Assembly (NCBI RefSeq): GCF_000238335.3
Contig: NZ_AHCB03000005.1
Location: 434,001 to 498,000, forward strand
DNA length: 64,000 bases
Direction of reading: 5' to 3'
Source: Pseudoalteromonas marina
GTDB taxonomy: Bacteria > Pseudomonadota > Gammaproteobacteria > Enterobacterales > Alteromonadaceae
The notes beneath the pieces were generated by a model. That model was not told the DNA's origin and searched no databases. It worked only from the letters and a program-made list of their open reading frames with translations. The position numbers and the translations under genes were made by a program. Of the stretch, positions 2,571 through 18,713 are shown piece by piece (position 1 is the first letter of the stretch; the number at the start of each line of letters is the position of its first letter).

Positions 2571-3137
2571 ATGTCAGATAAGTGCTATATCACAGCTCAA
2601 CAGTTACTTGAAGATTCATTCCGCGTAGCGGCACAAGTATACAAAGACGGCTTTCGTCCTGATTTTATTATAGGTATTTGGCGAGGTGGTGCACCAATTG
2701 GTATTGCTGTGCAAGAATATTACGATTACAAAGGTATTGAAACTGACCACATTGCAGTGCGCACATCGTCTTATTATGGTATTGGCCAGCAATCAAAAGA
2801 AATTAAAGTACACGGCTTACATTACATTGTAGAAAACGCTAATGCGGGTGATTCTCTGCTTATTGTTGATGATGTATTTGACTCAGGGCGCAGTATTGTT
2901 GCACTAAAAGAAAAGCTTTCAGAACTAATGCGCTTAAATTTACCGCGCGATATTCGAATTGCTTGCCCATACTACAAACCAAAAAATTCAAAAGTAGATA
3001 CCGTGCCTGATTACTACATTCATGAGTCTGAAGAATGGTTAGTATTCCCGCATGAATTGTCGGGTTTAACACCAGATGAAATTATTGAAGGTAAATCTGA
3101 CTTAGTGAAAATTCACGATATTTTGTTAGAAGACTAA
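2571..3137 (+). CDS. Phosphoribosyltransferase (purine type, HPRT-like)
   Basis: A 188-residue type I phosphoribosyltransferase. The PRPP-binding loop is 'LLIVDDVFDSGRSI' at residues 97-110, with the paired Asp100/Asp101 of the family. The N-terminal 'DFIIGIWRGGAPIG' segment fits the second PRPP contact region. The base specificity cannot be read reliably; hypoxanthine or xanthine/guanine salvage is the likely role in the cytosol. The gene stands alone, flanked by the pepB terminator and its own terminator. Confidence 0.8.
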   Translation: MSDKCYITAQQLLEDSFRVAAQVYKDGFRPDFIIGIWRGGAPIGIAVQEYYDYKGIETDHIAVRTSSYYGIGQQSKEIKVHGLHYIVENANAGDSLLIVDDVFDSGRSIVALKEKLSELMRLNLPRDIRIACPYYKPKNSKVDTVPDYYIHESEEWLVFPHELSGLTPDEIIEGKSDLVKIHDILLED

Positions 3138-3199
3138 TACAACGAGTGCATCGATTGCATATTTAGCCTTACGAACGTGTTATTTGTTTTTAGGGCAAT

Positions 3200-12912: not shown

Positions 12913-14166
12913 GTGAAAAGTAGCTTAAAAAACGTTTACCTAGTCGGTGGAGCAGTACGCGATAAACTGCTAAACATTGCATCAAAAGATAACGATTATG
13001 TGGTTATTGGCGAAACGCCCAGTTCCATGGAGTCGCTTGGCTTTTTACCAATAGGTAGCGACTTTCCTGTTTATTTGCACCCAAAAACAAAAGAAGAATA
13101 CGCACTAGGGCGTACCGAACGAAAAAGCGGTAAGGGTTATACAGGCTTTGTAGTAGACGCCAGCCCTAGCGTAACACTTGAAGAAGACCTCGCAAGGCGC
13201 GACTTAACCATAAACTCTATGGCGCTTGACGAAAACGGTAAAATTATTGACCCTTTTAATGGCCAACACGATTTACAAAACAAAATACTGCGCCACACTA
13301 CACACGCTTTTGTAGAAGACCCTGTGCGAGTGCTGCGTATTGCACGGTTTTTAGCGCGTTACGGCAGCGATTGGCAAATCCATCCCAGCACTTATGCATT
13401 AATGCGAGAGCTTAAAAACAAAGGCGAGCTTAACCACTTAGTGCCTGAACGTGTATGGTTAGAAACCGAAAAAGCGCTTGGCGAAAAACACCCCGAGCTT
13501 TACTTTCAAGCATTAGATGGGCTGGGCATTTTTCCTGAAATAGAACAAATGAAAAACGTACCACAACCTGCCAATCATCACCCTGAAGGCGATGTATTTG
13601 TGCATACAATGTTGGTGCTTAGGCGTGCGGCCGACTTAAATTTTAATTCAGAAACCCGCTTTGCTGCGCTTACCCACGATTTTGGCAAAGCCCTTAGCTA
13701 TAAAATACGCGGCAATTTACGCGGTCACGAACGCGAAGGTGTAGCGGTGGTAGAGTCATTTTGTAATCGTTTAAAAGTGCCTAATCGTTTTCGTGATATT
13801 GGCGTATTGACGAGCGATAATCACACTTTATGCCATACGATTGATCAGCTTAGGCCGCAAACTATTCATAAATTAATTGTCACTAATTTAAATGGTTTGG
13901 TGCACCCTGAGCGCTTTTTAGCATTTACTCAGGCCTGCCAATGTGACGCGCAAGGCCGCGGAGAAACACTGGTTAATAAGCCTTACCCGCAGGCAATTAA
14001 GTTGCGCGCCATTCATAGTAAATTACAGCAAATGGATAAAAAGCACATAGTGCAAGAGGCGCTTAAAAGTGGCAAAAAAGGCCCAGAAATAGGCGAGGCA
14101 GTAAAGCTAGCAGAAATAAACTGTATCAAAGCGTTTTTAAGTGATGAGCCAAGTACAACAAGCTAA
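12913..14166 (+). CDS. cca: CCA tRNA nucleotidyltransferase with HD domain
   Basis: 417 residues, similar to E. coli Cca (412). It adds or repairs the 3' CCA of tRNAs. The N-terminal 'YLVGGAVRDKLLN' and 'DNDYVV' form the catalytic nucleotidyltransferase core; 'RRDLTINSMA' follows. The C-terminal HD domain includes 'HTMLVLRRAADL' and 'ALTHDFGKAL', giving possible phosphodiesterase/phosphatase activity as in the multifunctional bacterial type. Start is GTG at 12913. It marks the left edge of the accessory block. Confidence 0.95.
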   Translation: MKSSLKNVYLVGGAVRDKLLNIASKDNDYVVIGETPSSMESLGFLPIGSDFPVYLHPKTKEEYALGRTERKSGKGYTGFVVDASPSVTLEEDLARRDLTINSMALDENGKIIDPFNGQHDLQNKILRHTTHAFVEDPVRVLRIARFLARYGSDWQIHPSTYALMRELKNKGELNHLVPERVWLETEKALGEKHPELYFQALDGLGIFPEIEQMKNVPQPANHHPEGDVFVHTMLVLRRAADLNFNSETRFAALTHDFGKALSYKIRGNLRGHEREGVAVVESFCNRLKVPNRFRDIGVLTSDNHTLCHTIDQLRPQTIHKLIVTNLNGLVHPERFLAFTQACQCDAQGRGETLVNKPYPQAIKLRAIHSKLQQMDKKHIVQEALKSGKKGPEIGEAVKLAEINCIKAFLSDEPSTTS

Positions 14167-14176
14167 CTAGTGTAAA

Positions 14177-14356
14177 TTAAGTCAAGTATTGAGATACGCC
14201 TTGCACCTCAAGGCGCGGTACTTTTTGAAGGTCGTTTATTTGCGTATGCTGTGGTTTGTTTGCCTCTGGCTCAGCGTTTTTGTCTGATTTATATAAACTA
14301 AAAATAAAGTCGAGCTCTTCTCGTTCAAGTGATGGGGTCACGGCAAATCCTACTGC
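14177..14356 (-). pseudogene. Gene 3' remnant at cassette-block boundary
   Basis: An open minus-strand frame of 59 codons with protein-like composition ('SLEREELDFIFSLYKS', then 'KVPRLEVQG') but no ATG and no ribosome binding site. It is bounded upstream by a stop at 14357-14359, eight bases from the attC-like core. It reads as the tail of a gene cut where the cassette block begins. The parent gene was not recognised. Confidence 0.35.
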
Positions 14357-14359
14357 TTA

Positions 14360-14371
14360 ATGCGTTAATAT
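14360..14371 (+). repeat. Putative left boundary of cassette array (R'-like core)
   Basis: GCGTTAATA resembles the right-hand core box of the downstream attC sites (GCGTTATGT, GCGTTAGGT). The cassette that follows has R'' ACTTAAC, whose complement GTTAAGT shares the first five bases with GTTAATA. No R'' or stem is evident to the left. Confidence 0.35.
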
Positions 14372-14658
14372 AGTCCCAGAGTATGTGAACGCGACTGAAT
14401 TAAAGGTGAATAGTTACAAAGGAAGGTGACTGTTTATTTCCTCACTGTTTATTAGTACATTACTTTTCTGTCTAATATTACTGATCTCTACCATTTTGGG
14501 GTATTTCTACATTTAGAATATTTTGAATGCTATATAACTATTTGTTTACATGCGCTTATTAGCTGGCTACATTGGATTGATTGTAATATTTGGACATATG
14601 CCGGTTTATAAAGCGACACATGTCGGATACAAAGTTGTTAAATGCACATGGAGCTTCG

Positions 14659-15084
14659 GTGAAATTTTCAATATTAATACTACTAACTTTATCTTTTTCT
14701 TTATTCGCAGAAGAAAAGTTAGATTGTGAGAAAGCTTGGACAACTATTGATGTTAATAGGTGTATGTCTATTGATTTAGCTGAGGTTGAAAAGGTAATGG
14801 AAAAATACCTTGCTAAAAGCCTTGAGCGATATAAAGAAGATAAGGTATCACTTAAATCAATAGAAGAGTCACAGGATTTATGGTTAGCATATCGTAATTC
14901 TCATTGTGGCGCTGTATATGATACATGGCGAGATGGCACTATCAGGACATCAATGGGGCTAGGTTGTAAAATTGACATTACTCAGCAACGTACTAAAAAG
15001 CTTTGGTTATACTTTTTAACTTATATGGACTCAACTCCAGCAATTTTACCAGAGCCAAAACCATATAAACCAAAAAGCTATTAG
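14659..15084 (+). CDS. Cassette gene: LprI/DUF1311-type exported protein
   Basis: 141 residues from GTG at 14659, chosen because GGAG lies 5 bases upstream and it gives a clean signal peptide ('ILILLTLSFSLFAEE'). The mature part has the DUF1311/LprI pattern: 'LDCEKAWTTIDVNRCM', then 'LKSIEESQDLWLAYRNSHC' and a later Cys in 'LGCKID'. LprI-family proteins include lysozyme inhibitors in mycobacteria; here that role is only a family-level possibility. It is the gene of the first recognised cassette and is followed 11 bases later by attC site A. Confidence 0.7.
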   Translation: MKFSILILLTLSFSLFAEEKLDCEKAWTTIDVNRCMSIDLAEVEKVMEKYLAKSLERYKEDKVSLKSIEESQDLWLAYRNSHCGAVYDTWRDGTIRTSMGLGCKIDITQQRTKKLWLYFLTYMDSTPAILPEPKPYKPKSY

Positions 15085-15094
15085 GCATAAGTGC

Positions 15095-15197
15095 ACTTAA
15101 CAAGGCCGTTAAACCAAGGACACAAAACAGCAGGCTTGTGCTCCTTCGTCGCCAATTTTAGCCTGCTATTTTGTGCCGTTTACGACAAGCGTTATGT
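15095..15197 (+). repeat. attC site A
   Basis: Left core ACTTAAC at 15095-15101, right core GCGTTATGT ending at 15197. Stem arms 15121-15136 and 15160-15175 pair at 15 of 16 positions. It follows the LprI-type gene directly. Confidence 0.8.
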
Positions 15198-15212
15198 GGC
15201 ATGGAAGGTTAA

Positions 15213-15641
15213 GTGAAAATATTTATCGGAATTGTAGTTTTAACGTCAGCTTTGATTGCGATTATTGCCTTTAGCAACCAGGCTCAAGTGTTCTTACTCC
15301 ACAAGATGTACTCTCTAGGTTCTGGTATAGACGATGGGGCAACAGAGTTATTTATTCGTAATAAACACCGCTACAAATCTGTTGTTTTGGAATTACTTAA
15401 TGCTGAAACTCCCAACACTTACAAAGCTCAAGCTTCTTTTTTGTTTGGCGAGCTACTATTAGATGACCCTGAAATTCATGAAAAGATAGAAGATATTTCG
15501 GTTAATCACCCAAACAAACAAATTAGATGCTTTTGGTTTGATGTACTGGATGGTCGGTTCGAGCATGAGCTTATAGCAGGTAGTGAATCTAGTAAGTTTG
15601 CTACTTATGTGGTTAAAGACAAAGGAAGTAGGTGCGAGTAA
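15213..15641 (+). CDS. Cassette gene: membrane-anchored protein, unknown function
   Basis: 142 residues with an N-terminal membrane anchor or uncleaved signal (about 3-20, 'FIGIVVLTSALIAIIAF') and a soluble alpha-helical remainder. No family recognised; the run of short helices ('YKAQASFLFGELLLDDPEIHEKI') resembles helical-repeat scaffolds but this is weak. Start is GTG at 15213 with a GGAAGG ribosome binding site. The gene sits 16 bases after attC A and its stop lies 6 bases before attC B, as in a typical cassette. Confidence 0.65.
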   Translation: MKIFIGIVVLTSALIAIIAFSNQAQVFLLHKMYSLGSGIDDGATELFIRNKHRYKSVVLELLNAETPNTYKAQASFLFGELLLDDPEIHEKIEDISVNHPNKQIRCFWFDVLDGRFEHELIAGSESSKFATYVVKDKGSRCE

Positions 15642-15646
15642 ATGCC

Positions 15647-15752
15647 ACATAACAAAAAAATTAAGTCACTCACTGCGTTCGCTGGGACGCAAACATGTGG
15701 GCTGCTTCGCATTATAGCCCACATGTTTGCGCCCCTTATTTAGAAGTTATGT
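15647..15752 (+). repeat. attC site B
   Basis: Left core ACATAAC at 15647-15653 and right core GTTATGT at 15746-15752. Perfect 16-base stem arms at 15688-15703 and 15716-15731. The left core is the exact complement of the right core of site A, which bounds the same cassette. Confidence 0.85.
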
Positions 15753-15768
15753 TTTCATGGAGCCCGTA

Positions 15769-16134
15769 GTGAGTTCAAGTAACTGGGATAGTGCTGTAAT
15801 AAAAAGTATTGGCTATGTTGGTATAGGAATCGCCGTTTGGTTTTTATTCAATGGACTGGCACCTTCATCACTTGATGATATTTATGGACTTGCCGTTACT
15901 TTTTTACTTTATATTAGTGTTTACCTACTAATTTCTATCGTTGGTTGGTTAGTTGTTGGCTTTCCTGTTCACTGGTTTGTAAAAAAGTACACTAACGGCT
16001 CTTATGCTTTTTATATCGCAATACCACTAATAGTTGTTGTTGGTGGCTTGTTTAACAACACTCCTCAAATATTAGGTTTGGCGGCATTATTTCAAGCCTT
16101 TTTGTTTAGGTATTATCTGAACAAAAAAACATAA
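15769..16134 (+). CDS. Cassette gene: polytopic membrane protein, unknown function
   Basis: 121 residues from GTG at 15769, which has GGAG six bases upstream; an ATG at 15757 and a TTG at 15727 are in frame, but the latter lies inside attC B. Four hydrophobic segments (roughly 12-28, 36-58, 75-92 and 95-113) predict an integral membrane protein. No family recognised. The stop codon TAA is part of the left core of attC C (ACATAACAA), a common cassette arrangement. Confidence 0.6.
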   Translation: MSSSNWDSAVIKSIGYVGIGIAVWFLFNGLAPSSLDDIYGLAVTFLLYISVYLLISIVGWLVVGFPVHWFVKKYTNGSYAFYIAIPLIVVVGGLFNNTPQILGLAALFQAFLFRYYLNKKT

Positions 16135-16229
16135 CAAGGGTTTTCAAGTCGGACAAATTACAGTTGGCTTTTGTTCGTACCTCACTTATTTTAGCCAACA
16201 ACAATTTGCCGCTTAAAGCGGCGTTAGGT
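16129..16229 (+). repeat. attC site C
   Basis: Left core ACATAAC at 16129-16135, right core GTTAGGT at 16223-16229. Stem arms 16154-16169 and 16193-16208 with an internal 3-base mismatch. Inner arm AGTTGGCT/AGCCAAC is shared with sites D and E. Its left core is the complement of the right core of site B. Confidence 0.85.
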
Positions 16230-16248
16230 ATTCAGGGAAGGTTCGAGT

Positions 16249-16587
16249 TTGTTTAATCTATTAAAATTTATAAGCATCGTTTTACAATGCTTTTTACTCT
16301 TATCATTATTTAACTTCTTTTCAGGTTTATATTCCGCATTCCTAGAATTATCTACAAACGATCCTAAATTGTTAGCAGGTCATATATCGACAGGCATAGT
16401 GCTTTCTCTTATCCAAATAATTCCTGCTTTAATCGGTCTAATTATCAGTGTTTGGTTATTGAACAAAAACCATAGCTCCAAGTTGTTTGTTATTTATTGC
16501 AAATACTTCGCGTATATATGGCTTTTATTTATTCCTATTGGTACATTCTTAGGTGTTAAGCAACTAAAAAGGTTAAAGAATACCTAA
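16249..16587 (+). CDS. Cassette gene: small membrane protein with IPIGTFLG tail motif
   Basis: 112 residues from a TTG start with GGGAAGG about 8 bases upstream; no ATG is available. Three hydrophobic segments (about 5-30, 45-70 and 82-100). The C-terminal stretch 'LLFIPIGTFLGVKQLKRL' is shared with the product of the gene at 17665 ('LFLIPIGTFLGLTGLIML'), so the two are probably members of one small membrane family. Function unknown. The stop overlaps the left core of attC D. Confidence 0.6.
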   Translation: MFNLLKFISIVLQCFLLLSLFNFFSGLYSAFLELSTNDPKLLAGHISTGIVLSLIQIIPALIGLIISVWLLNKNHSSKLFVIYCKYFAYIWLLFIPIGTFLGVKQLKRLKNT

Positions 16588-16681
16588 CAAGGCATTAAAG
16601 CAGGAAAATTTACAGTTGGCTGTTTTCACTGCGTTCAACATTTTAGCCAACTACAAATTTCCTCTTAATGAAGCGTTAGGA
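16582..16681 (+). repeat. attC site D
   Basis: Left core ACCTAAC at 16582-16588, right core GTTAGGA at 16675-16681. Stem arms 16603-16621 and 16645-16662. The left core is the exact complement of the right core of site C. The right core also supplies the AGGAG ribosome binding site of the next gene. Confidence 0.85.
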
Positions 16682-16687
16682 GTACCA

Positions 16688-17095
16688 ATGAGACCGTGTA
16701 TATTTCTAGCTTTGTGCATTGCTTCGTTGAATGTATTCGCAATAGATAAGAGTCAATATACACCTGAACAATTGTTTGTGATTGGCACTGAATTATTTAA
16801 AGAAGAAAGAAAAGAATTTAACCCTAAATTGGGGCTAGAATTCATACTTGAATCGGCGAAATTCAAATATGAACATGCTCCTTTCGGGTTGTGTGTTTCC
16901 CTATCAACTACAAAAGAAATTTTGGATTTAAAAGAAGCTTATTCGTGGTGCTACGTCGCTGAAAAAATTGGCAACAAATATTCGAAAATGGCAGCGGAAA
17001 GAAGTAAGGAAATATTAGGTAAAATACTTTTGGATGATGGTGTTGAAGCGGTTACTGAAGCAAAAGAGTTAGGAAAATTAAAGTACAGTCAATAA
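16688..17095 (+). CDS. Cassette gene: exported Sel1-repeat-like protein
   Basis: 135 residues from ATG 16688; a longer frame from 16616 would run through attC D and is rejected. The signal peptide 'CIFLALCIASLNVFA' is followed by alpha-helical pairs resembling Sel1 repeats: 'GLEFILESAKFKYEHAPFGL' and 'EAYSWCYVAEKIGNKYSKMA'. Sel1-like proteins act in protein-protein contacts in the periplasm. Its ribosome binding site (AGGAG, 16678-16682) overlaps the attC right core, so cassette insertion provides part of the translation signal. Confidence 0.7.
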   Translation: MRPCIFLALCIASLNVFAIDKSQYTPEQLFVIGTELFKEERKEFNPKLGLEFILESAKFKYEHAPFGLCVSLSTTKEILDLKEAYSWCYVAEKIGNKYSKMAAERSKEILGKILLDDGVEAVTEAKELGKLKYSQ

Positions 17096-17100
17096 GGTAC

Positions 17101-17202
17101 ACCTAACAAACGCATTAAAAATGGACGTCTAACAGTTGGCTGGCGCTCATTCTTTGCTAAGTTTAGCCAACTGTTATCCGCCACTTATGCGGGCTGTTAT
17201 GT
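17101..17202 (+). repeat. attC site E
   Basis: Left core ACCTAAC at 17101-17107, right core GTTATGT at 17196-17202. Perfect 11-base inner arms at 17131-17141 and 17165-17175 (AACAGTTGGCT and complement). Left core matches the complement of site D's right core at 6 of 7 bases. Confidence 0.85.
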
Positions 17203-17215
17203 ACAAAGGATAGCT

Positions 17216-17650
17216 GTGAGAATAATTCTAGTTTTATTAACTCTTTTATTAAGTTCTTGTTCGTTAACCCGTTACACTGAGTTCGCATAATTAAGAGCTA
17301 GGAGCGATTTTTTCGATTCTCGAAAAGGAGTTTTTAAACGCTCACTTTGCTTCGTAAACCAAGAGAATGTAGAAGTTGCTTTACTCTTTACAAAAAGTGA
17401 AAAGCAGAAACTTTTTCGCTTTGCCAAACAAGACATACGCGATGGCAATGCTGGTTTAATCGATCTAGAAAAAATATGTGTTAGCAGTTATCCATATGAA
17501 ATTAAGTATGGTGGCAGTAAGGGTGAAATCAAAACAACTTGTTTTTCATCTTTACAAGATGATGAAGCTCAATTATTAAATTTTGTGTACGCCATTGAAG
17601 CAAACAACCACGCCAACACATTGCGTGTTAGGCAAGCGTTATGTAACTAA
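17216..17650 (+). pseudogene. Cassette gene broken by in-frame stop: lipoprotein
   Basis: Starting at GTG 17216, 13 bases after attC E and preceded by AAAGGA, the frame encodes a lipoprotein signal ('VLLTLLLSSCSLTRY') and meets TAA at 17288-17290 (codon 25). The same frame then stays open for another 119 codons to a stop at 17648-17650, with protein-like content ('RSDFFDSRKGVFKRSLCF', 'IKTTCFSSLQDDEAQLL'), but no start codon near its beginning. A single nonsense change in a roughly 144-residue lipoprotein explains this. Sequencing error or readthrough are alternatives. Function unknown. Confidence 0.65.
17600..17644 (+). repeat. Degenerate attC-like site F
   Basis: Right core GCGTTATGT at 17636-17644 is intact. 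The only stem is GCCAACAC/GTGTTAGGC with one bulged base, and the expected left core ACATAAC is missing (AAACAAC at 17602-17608 is the nearest). It overlaps the 3' end of the broken lipoprotein gene. Confidence 0.45.
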
Positions 17651-17664
17651 GTAAGAGGTAGCAA

Positions 17665-18060
17665 ATGAGCAAAGAGGTTATAGGGAAGTACATTGCAATT
17701 TTAGGCTTATTGCTTTTTTGGGCATTTCCATTGGGAGTGGCAGATGCGTTTTACCCTATGTACTCATCATTCCAAGATATAAGTCTTTTTGGAACAAATG
17801 AACCTAAAATAAATCCAGAAGAAATATCAATGTTGAAATCTATTGTGGTCGGTTTTGGTATATTTATGTTGGGGCTTATGTTTTTATTAGTTTCCGCTAT
17901 AGGCCTAAATTACCGAACTAATTGGCTGTTTTGGACTCTGTTAATTTATTCAATTTTATTACTTTTTTTAATTCCTATTGGTACATTTTTGGGATTAACA
18001 GGGTTGATAATGTTAAGTTTAAATAGGAAAAAGTTCGGGTCAGATGTCCACGTTACATAG
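17665..18060 (+). CDS. Small membrane protein with IPIGTFLG tail motif
   Basis: 131 residues; ATG at 17665 with AGAGG upstream. Three hydrophobic segments (about 7-24, 58-82 and 90-118). The C-terminal part 'LFLIPIGTFLGLTGLIML' repeats the motif of the cassette gene at 16249. The gene follows the right core of degenerate site F by 20 bases, so it probably entered as a cassette, but no attC follows it. Function unknown. Confidence 0.6.
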   Translation: MSKEVIGKYIAILGLLLFWAFPLGVADAFYPMYSSFQDISLFGTNEPKINPEEISMLKSIVVGFGIFMLGLMFLLVSAIGLNYRTNWLFWTLLIYSILLLFLIPIGTFLGLTGLIMLSLNRKKFGSDVHVT

Positions 18061-18139
18061 CAAATGGATTAAGACGGACGTAATACAAGAGCGGTATTTA
18101 GCCCATTATCAAGGTATTACAGTAAGAGGAGTACTTACA

Positions 18140-18361
18140 ATGGTTCGTCAATCACGTAAATTTAAAATATTTGCTGCAATAATTACCATCCCATTATTTG
18201 CGGTATTTTTATTTGGGTACAGCTTTATTATCTTTATGTATGCTGATGGGTTAAGCAACATTAAGCACTACTTCTTATTTGGTTTAGGTTTTATTGGTAT
18301 TCTTTTGTGGGCAAAAATGTCCGTGAATATGATTAAAGACATAAGATTGATTAAGGTGTAA
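18140..18361 (+). CDS. Small two-helix membrane protein
   Basis: 73 residues from ATG 18140, which has an AAGAGGAG ribosome binding site about 9 bases upstream; a frame start at 18044 overlaps the preceding gene and lacks one. Two hydrophobic segments (about 10-30 and 42-58) are separated by a polar turn. No family recognised. Its stop lies in TAATAACAAG, which resembles the left core and following bases of attC sites in the array, possibly a relic of a lost site. Confidence 0.5.
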   Translation: MVRQSRKFKIFAAIITIPLFAVFLFGYSFIIFMYADGLSNIKHYFLFGLGFIGILLWAKMSVNMIKDIRLIKV

Positions 18362-18374
18362 TAACAAGAAAGAT

Positions 18375-18713
18375 ATGCGTTCAATTCAATTTTTAGGTTT
18401 ATTGACATCAATAGTGTCATTTTTGTGTTTGTTTTGGGCTTTAGCTCCGCTTTCGCCTGACAGTAGCGCTTCAGTAGAAGGTGCTATTGGCTTGTTTTTA
18501 ATGTTTGGTGTAGCACCACTTTTTGGTTTTTCAGCCTTGTTGTTAATTCCTTCATCTATCGCACTATTTAATGCTAAGTTAAGAGCGAACACTTATTTTT
18601 ATGGTAAGTTTTGGTACGGTGTATGGGGCATTAATAGTTTGATATCTGTAGGGTATGTGTTTGTCATTTTATACATTGGTTATATTTACTTAACTTTAAA
18701 AGTTAGCAACTAG
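18375..18713 (+). CDS. Small polytopic membrane protein
   Basis: 112 residues with three to four hydrophobic segments (about 5-25, 36-66 and 85-108). No family recognised. The ATG at 18375 has a weak AAGAAAG ribosome binding site, 14 bases after the preceding gene. Last gene of the accessory block before the sortase locus. Confidence 0.5.
   Translation: MRSIQFLGLLTSIVSFLCLFWALAPLSPDSSASVEGAIGLFLMFGVAPLFGFSALLLIPSSIALFNAKLRANTYFYGKFWYGVWGINSLISVGYVFVILYIGYIYLTLKVSN

Follow-up and report, generated by a model that had tools for sequence, protein, structure and literature searches.

Sedentary chromosomal integrons of the Vibrio and Xanthomonas type carry an attI site and attC cassettes on the chromosome, and the attC sites within one genome form a related family. 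Arrays without an integrase are known as CALINs (clusters of attC sites lacking an integron integrase), a term reportedly due to Cury et al. We analysed such an array beside the cca gene in a 64,000-nucleotide stretch of Pseudoalteromonas marina (hereafter the window, G000:C4:434001-498000; genome G000 comprises 4.19 Mb in 11 contigs). The origins proposed for CALINs, in the text available to us, are loss of the integrase gene intI, off-target insertion and rearrangement (PMC8618304). Xanthomonas CALINs occupy several conserved chromosomal loci and are regarded, in the accessible part of that report, as mobilisable in trans (PMC12444791), while the excerpt available on Treponema phagedenis describes an integron remnant that kept attC sites and cassettes after intI loss as static (PMC3607928). 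Integrase-less arrays tend to be taken for relics or off-target insertions, and a common annotation tool searches for attC and intI and ignores attI outside class 1 integrons: in the portion available, IntegronFinder 2.0 treats such sites as poorly described and does not detect them (PMC9024848).

Judged from its sequence, the cca locus is an integron with attI and cassettes and without intI. Its attC array without a neighbouring integrase resembles a CALIN, but that class, in the definition accessible to us, rests on attC alone; the label is therefore incomplete, because an attI stands before cassette 1. The attI, attC and chromosomal layout is that of a sedentary chromosomal integron, whereas intI is absent beside the array and there are many platforms per genome. 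As far as the available text allows comparison, the locus shares with the Xanthomonas CALINs an integrase-less array at conserved loci (PMC12444791). That text describes no attI at those loci; here attI is present and turnover breaks at the attI crossover. The T. phagedenis remnant, as described in the excerpt, likewise lacks intI; in contrast, the arrays studied here differ between relatives with a common integrase-less flank (PMC3607928). No description of dispersed integrase-less attI platforms was found in the literature searched, including the available part of PMC12901181. The attI and the well-formed cassettes are as follows; all lie on the forward strand.

14464-14640, forward: attI platform of type T1, recognised by a profile match, by identity to an intI-adjacent attI and by a copy in Pseudoalteromonas sp. 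H71
14466-14488, 14593-14627 and 14637, forward: parts of attI read from the sequence, namely a conserved block, an imperfect palindrome and the crossover G^TT
14659-15084, forward: cassette 1 gene, 141 residues, GTG start, LprI family (Pfam PF07007), N-terminus like a signal peptide by eye
15095-15197, forward: attC site A, read from the sequence and recognised by folding and by covariance models R1 and R2, as are sites B to E
15213-15641, forward: cassette 2 gene, an open reading frame of 142 residues without a Pfam match
15647-15752, forward: attC site B
15757-16134, forward: cassette 3 gene, an open reading frame of 125 residues, membrane-protein-like by eye, without a Pfam match
16129-16229, forward: attC site C
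16249-16587, forward: cassette 4 gene, an open reading frame of 112 residues without a Pfam match; the cassette also occurs at other loci
16582-16681, forward: attC site D
16688-17095, forward: cassette 5 gene, an open reading frame of 135 residues, exported-like by eye, without a Pfam match
17101-17202, forward: attC site E

The attI of about 175 bp lies immediately before cassette 1 and suits it as a crossover site, with agreement at 10 of 11 bases. It scored 151.6 bits against a profile of 42 T1 copies that includes the window copy. Its identity is 74% (E value 9e-28) to the attI next to the intact integrase gene of the same genome and 90% to the H71 copy. When the query was extended past the crossover, matches mostly ended at the crossover or within about 15 bases of it. 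An attI thus stands upstream of the first cassette, as in a complete integron, with no intI next to it: a panel of ten IntI proteins gave no match in the window between 9 and 24 kb. The array has at least two attC sites and, by this panel and a search of its own genome for intI, no integrase nearby. This part of the CALIN designation in the initial annotation stands; the designation had missed the attI upstream of cassette 1 and the similar anchoring of other attC loci in the genome. Promoter-like hexamers, as sought for a cassette promoter (Pc) on the letters of the region, are present and no commoner than in shuffled sequence. A box resembling a LexA site (CTGT-N8-ACAG) lies ahead of almost all intI genes, being present in 48 of the 51 library regions, among which three places are counted twice (for example, at about 68-84 in L017); at the cca platform at most a degenerate trace of it may be left by eye, at about 14445-14460.

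All five attC sites previously proposed were recovered at the same coordinates. Their cores are of the RYYYAAC/GTTRRRY type, some one base off the consensus, and enclose an imperfect palindrome that folds into a hairpin. Evidence independent of the covariance models comes from bottom-strand DNA folding (z of -2.3 to -5.8) and from the attC alignment, where at least one compensatory change occurs in 11 of the 18 consensus pairs. Top-strand folding was about equal (z of -2.6 to -5.8), so no strand preference is apparent. Covariance model R1 was built from the five window sites and R2 is a version rebuilt with corrected outer pairs; the R2 scores of 55-87 bits for these sites are partly circular, since the five sites trained both models. 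R1 gave 33 matches, comprising the five window sites and 28 others in four of eight further stretches of G000. An Rfam scan of the window returned a single tRNA, and no attC family was matched.

The boundaries of the cassettes obey the rule expected of an integron integrase. Cassette starts complement their own left core at 52 of 55 positions (5 cassettes of 11 bases, the first counted from attI), and among the 120 possible pairings of starts and cores the true one is the best (second best 48, mean 38.6). The agreement between cassette start and own left core that a circular intermediate should leave is thus seen in all five. The earlier report of exact complements after sites A, B and C and of a single mismatch after D holds, as does the reading of these features as marks of integrase insertion in the absence of a nearby integrase. 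Pfam gave no family for four of the five cassette proteins (cassettes 2-5), which the initial annotation had described as mostly unknown membrane or exported proteins; cassette 1 matched LprI (PF07007) with 52.7 bits at a cut-off of 22.

Genome G000 encodes one intact integron integrase, at C4:1271398-1272345 (326-327 residues, no stops, 492 bits to TIGR02249), and two further broken intI copies, at C4:1471253 and C5:244816. The attI beside the intact gene is of type T1, the same as in the window, so an intact integrase of matching type is present elsewhere in the genome. To classify attI sites, we used a library of 51 intI-adjacent regions (48 distinct), in which distinct intI types pair with distinct attI sequences of about 171-178 bp. 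By eye, a short tandem repeat lies within the T5 attI region of the broken C5 integron (L020, 14820-14945).

A census with R2, in which 150 of 2532 candidates were scored, yielded at least 59 attC matches in G000, grouped manually into 15 loci. One of these has an intact intI, two have a broken intI and 12 lack a substantial one. The three intI-bearing loci contributed library sequences and so match themselves; at all 12 others, an attI-type match lies upstream on the array strand, 11 with E values of 4e-22 or lower and one, L236, weak at 8e-11. The distance from attI to the first recognised attC at G000 loci was 237-3659 bases. The G000 copies of T1 (3) and T5 (6 places) that were found are all at attC loci, and T5 is multicopy in other genomes too, with six in G064. 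In four relatives (G097, G067, G105 and G100), 16 of 18 further attC loci have a correctly oriented attI. The library matched none of 67 control stretches from other genera (1.29 Mb), nor any of 14 stretches (0.31 Mb) drawn from the remainder of the window and from 12 further Pseudoalteromonas cca loci.

Across the genus, a search with the window attI, in which up to seven candidates were scored per genome, found matches in at least 32 of 108 genomes, with up to six per genome among the matches listed. We examined 42 of the 75 listed T1 matches, mostly the top-scoring ones: seven stand beside an intact intI, four beside a broken intI and 31 without intI. The integrase gene forms a decay series of intact copies, copies with stops, N-terminal scraps beside attI and complete absence; scraps of 23-72 residues occur in L238, L240 and L242 of G000, and one of 45 residues in L398. 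With all of these states represented, the most likely starting point of the platforms is a complete integron from which intI was later lost. By eye, array size bears no clear relation to the presence of a matching integrase.

Relatives differ in their arrays from the crossover onward. The closest named relative at the cca locus is Pseudoalteromonas sp. H71, and the two features that flank the array are both found there.

12913-14166, forward: cca (tRNA nucleotidyltransferase by the initial annotation), which borders the platform on the left, an open reading frame with 98% protein identity to H71
18136-18713, forward: shared right part with two small open reading frames (18140-18361 and 18375-18713) also in H71, defined by a 92.7% alignment to H71 from 18136

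Starting within cca at 13900, the window and H71 stay alignable to 14640, at 92% and with a net gap of a single base. Beyond 14640, only an attC-like stretch of 72 bases is common (76%), until the alignment resumes at 18136. In H71 the array holds two different cassettes, with attC sites of degenerate appearance. At 12 other named Pseudoalteromonas cca loci no attC was found, and the nine compared closely show an uninterrupted intergenic site. Identical content in all relatives, which the initial annotation had named as evidence against cassette insertion, was thus not what we found.

The same break recurs at other integrase-less platforms. In 77 orthologous integrase-less pairs from five loci (serS, B, C, D and cca), compared without gaps, the 60 bases right of the crossover agreed at 43% or less in every pair, window versus H71 included. 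The 43 bases to its left agreed at 84-99% on average per locus, the lowest single pair (35%) being at serS; L190 of locus B has only part of the left flank in common. In these sequences, therefore, the arrays differ from the crossover onward though the integrase-less left flank is common. Of the 17 stretches of locus D, 12 carry attI, as do 6 of the 22 of locus B (one of these in part), and intI adjoins none of these copies; L308, among the five D stretches without a full attI, retains an attI piece of 89 bases. Insertion ends at cca, B and D are inexact: the flanks are too diverged, and the empty junctions at B and D are not exact. For such cassette differences to prove action in trans, the loss of intI must predate the split of the compared lineages; this fits cca, B, C and D, where no copy fetched has intI.

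The attI itself is conserved at the site beside the putative serS gene. Among 11 integrase-less serS platforms, mean pairwise identity is 94% for the attI palindrome and 85% for the whole attI, against 75% for the adjoining intergenic DNA, with 33% gapped columns, and 90.5% for the serS coding sequence. The serS attI is conserved above the adjoining intergenic DNA, as expected if attI is still in use. An intact intI is present at this site in G000 and G063 and absent in 11 others. In a tree of the 42 T1 copies, the two copies from cca group inside the integrase-less clade of serS (12 rows, support 100/100). This placement suggests that cca received a copy of an integrase-less platform and that the cca platform descends from the serS lineage. 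The serS copy L179 (G100) lies outside this clade, and its attI looks chimeric, with a serS-type left flank and a right half of the intI-adjacent type; recombination between two attI sites or gene conversion is a possible origin.

Cassettes and attC sites are also common to separate arrays. Cassette 4 recurs in G000 at C11:596.8 kb (92%), behind a different attC that was recognised by eye and is not called by the model. A further copy, in G049 (96%), immediately follows an attI of type T2 (92% to the library), with no IntI in the 2.5 kb searched nearby. In each context the homology begins at the GTTAG core or within three bases of it, so the same cassette stands at different loci. Site A is 91% identical to an attC of the C11:208 kb platform and site D is 97% identical to one of the C4:1469 kb array, the highest value for a window attC against other G000 arrays.

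We propose, with a probability of about 0.7, that the cca locus is a satellite, an integron platform on which an integrase encoded elsewhere acts in trans. Complete integrons would have built up at many loci and lost intI at most of them, with attI and the array retained; some integrase-less lineages would then have been inherited for long. In G000 the intact IntI encoded at C4:1271398-1272345 would act in trans on the satellite attI sites, inserting and removing cassettes, so that many scattered attI platforms would depend on one or a few integrases. The chances seem about even that this holds throughout the genus, as a distributed integron in which one or a few integrases serve around a dozen attI platforms of several specificities across replicons. 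Most would-be CALINs would then be attI-anchored satellites, and integrase-less platforms could be relocated and inherited as independent lineages.

Several observations weigh against this proposal, the strongest objection being specificity. Non-cognate IntI/attI pairs generally recombine inefficiently, according to the available part of a review (PMC8946536), and only the T1 integrase is intact in G000, yet the attI at 12 of the 15 loci is of another type; for these two reasons, the non-T1 platforms may be idle here. H71 has no intact T1-type integrase among the matches listed, the listed IntI being 58% identical. Its degenerate cca array fits decay as well as service. The 77 pairs are not independent of each other, and repeated independent loss of intI, or exchange of whole arrays between strains, could also give array differences. 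The attI of locus B is barely more conserved than its own flank. Among the 18 loci in relatives, L393 and L401 lack an attI match and L399 and L402 have weak ones, one attC of L239 precedes the attI there, and three of the 15 G000 loci have a single recognised attC.

Some of these points recur in the reading of the platforms as passive relics, that is, once complete integrons that no longer have intI and no longer change, their array differences predating the losses and their attI merely persisting. The graded decay of intI, down to the scraps in L238, L240, L242 and L398, is what such a history would leave, as are the degenerate attC sites in H71 and at the 3' end of the window array and the small excess conservation of attI at locus B. 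Against it stand the arrays that differ from the crossover onward beside common integrase-less left flanks, and the conservation of attI above the adjoining intergenic DNA at serS. Together with the five well-formed attC sites of the window, and with attC sites and a cassette common to other arrays, this makes the relic reading unlikely to us.

Satellite platforms served in trans also have to be set against an ordinary CALIN, in which a resident integrase inserted cassettes off-target at a chromosomal attG site. In relatives the cca site is unoccupied, and by eye the flanks of the occupied sites seem to resume near a GTT of the empty site (GAAG^TTGTAC), with short alignments and an inexact junction, as attG insertion would give. 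But an attG insertion would bring no attI, whereas one of about 175 bp precedes cassette 1 and fits as the crossover, and an attI stands upstream at all 12 G000 loci without a substantial intI. We therefore reject attG as the origin of the array, where it is very improbable, and see it as viable only as the route by which a whole platform reached cca. Least credible of all is the reading of the attI-like sequence as something unrelated, a dispersed repeat or promoter element that chances to precede arrays. It is found at many loci and holds promoter-like hexamers, at the frequency of shuffles; but most of its matches stop at or near the crossover, it falls into several distinct types that each resemble the region next to a different intI, none occurs in 1.6 Mb of control stretches and the G000 copies of T1 and T5 that were found are confined to attC loci.

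If most integrase-less arrays of a genus carry a conserved attI and are still exchanging cassettes, a genome would have many expressed first positions instead of one. An array could still change after losing intI, and active integrons would be undercounted. The attI types gathered here make the idea testable by sequence search.

The five-site array described initially is real and continues past 17650; by eye, it extends to about 18.1 kb once a decayed sixth cassette and a seventh with a degenerate attC are counted.

17203-17650, forward: cassette 6, decayed, with an interrupted frame and only the right end of its attC left, read by eye from the sequence
17651-18130, forward: cassette 7, read from the sequence, with a gene at 17665-18060 and a degenerate attC that by eye starts with GTTATGTAAC and ends with GTTACATAGC

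The list of open reading frames holds no plus-strand frame of 60 residues or more in the cassette 6 region, and the covariance models do not call the attC of cassette 7. At the other end of the platform, a short minus-strand frame between cca and attI (window 14180-14345) is, by eye, apparently kept in relatives.

Mobile elements were also encountered at attI sites. In 5 of the 42 T1 copies (L168, L178, L184, L186 and L198), a 2.4-kb element lies just right of attI, exactly at the crossover (GTT^GAAC...). It contains a gene for a tyrosine recombinase with about 28% identity to IntI and, after it, a gene for a putative IS91-like transposase. A start closely resembling that of the element occurs at other attI types (L127 and L251), and a similar recombinase gene follows attI in L388; the element seems to target attI. 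Spread of attI by this IS91-like element is unsupported: two copies in G001 are identical over 2,381 bases, yet their attI sites differ, so the element seems to have inserted twice. In L194 (G005:C2), two attI sites (about 1735-1902 and 2997-3172) lie 1.2 kb apart with a gene between them, and the second also has part of the left flank.

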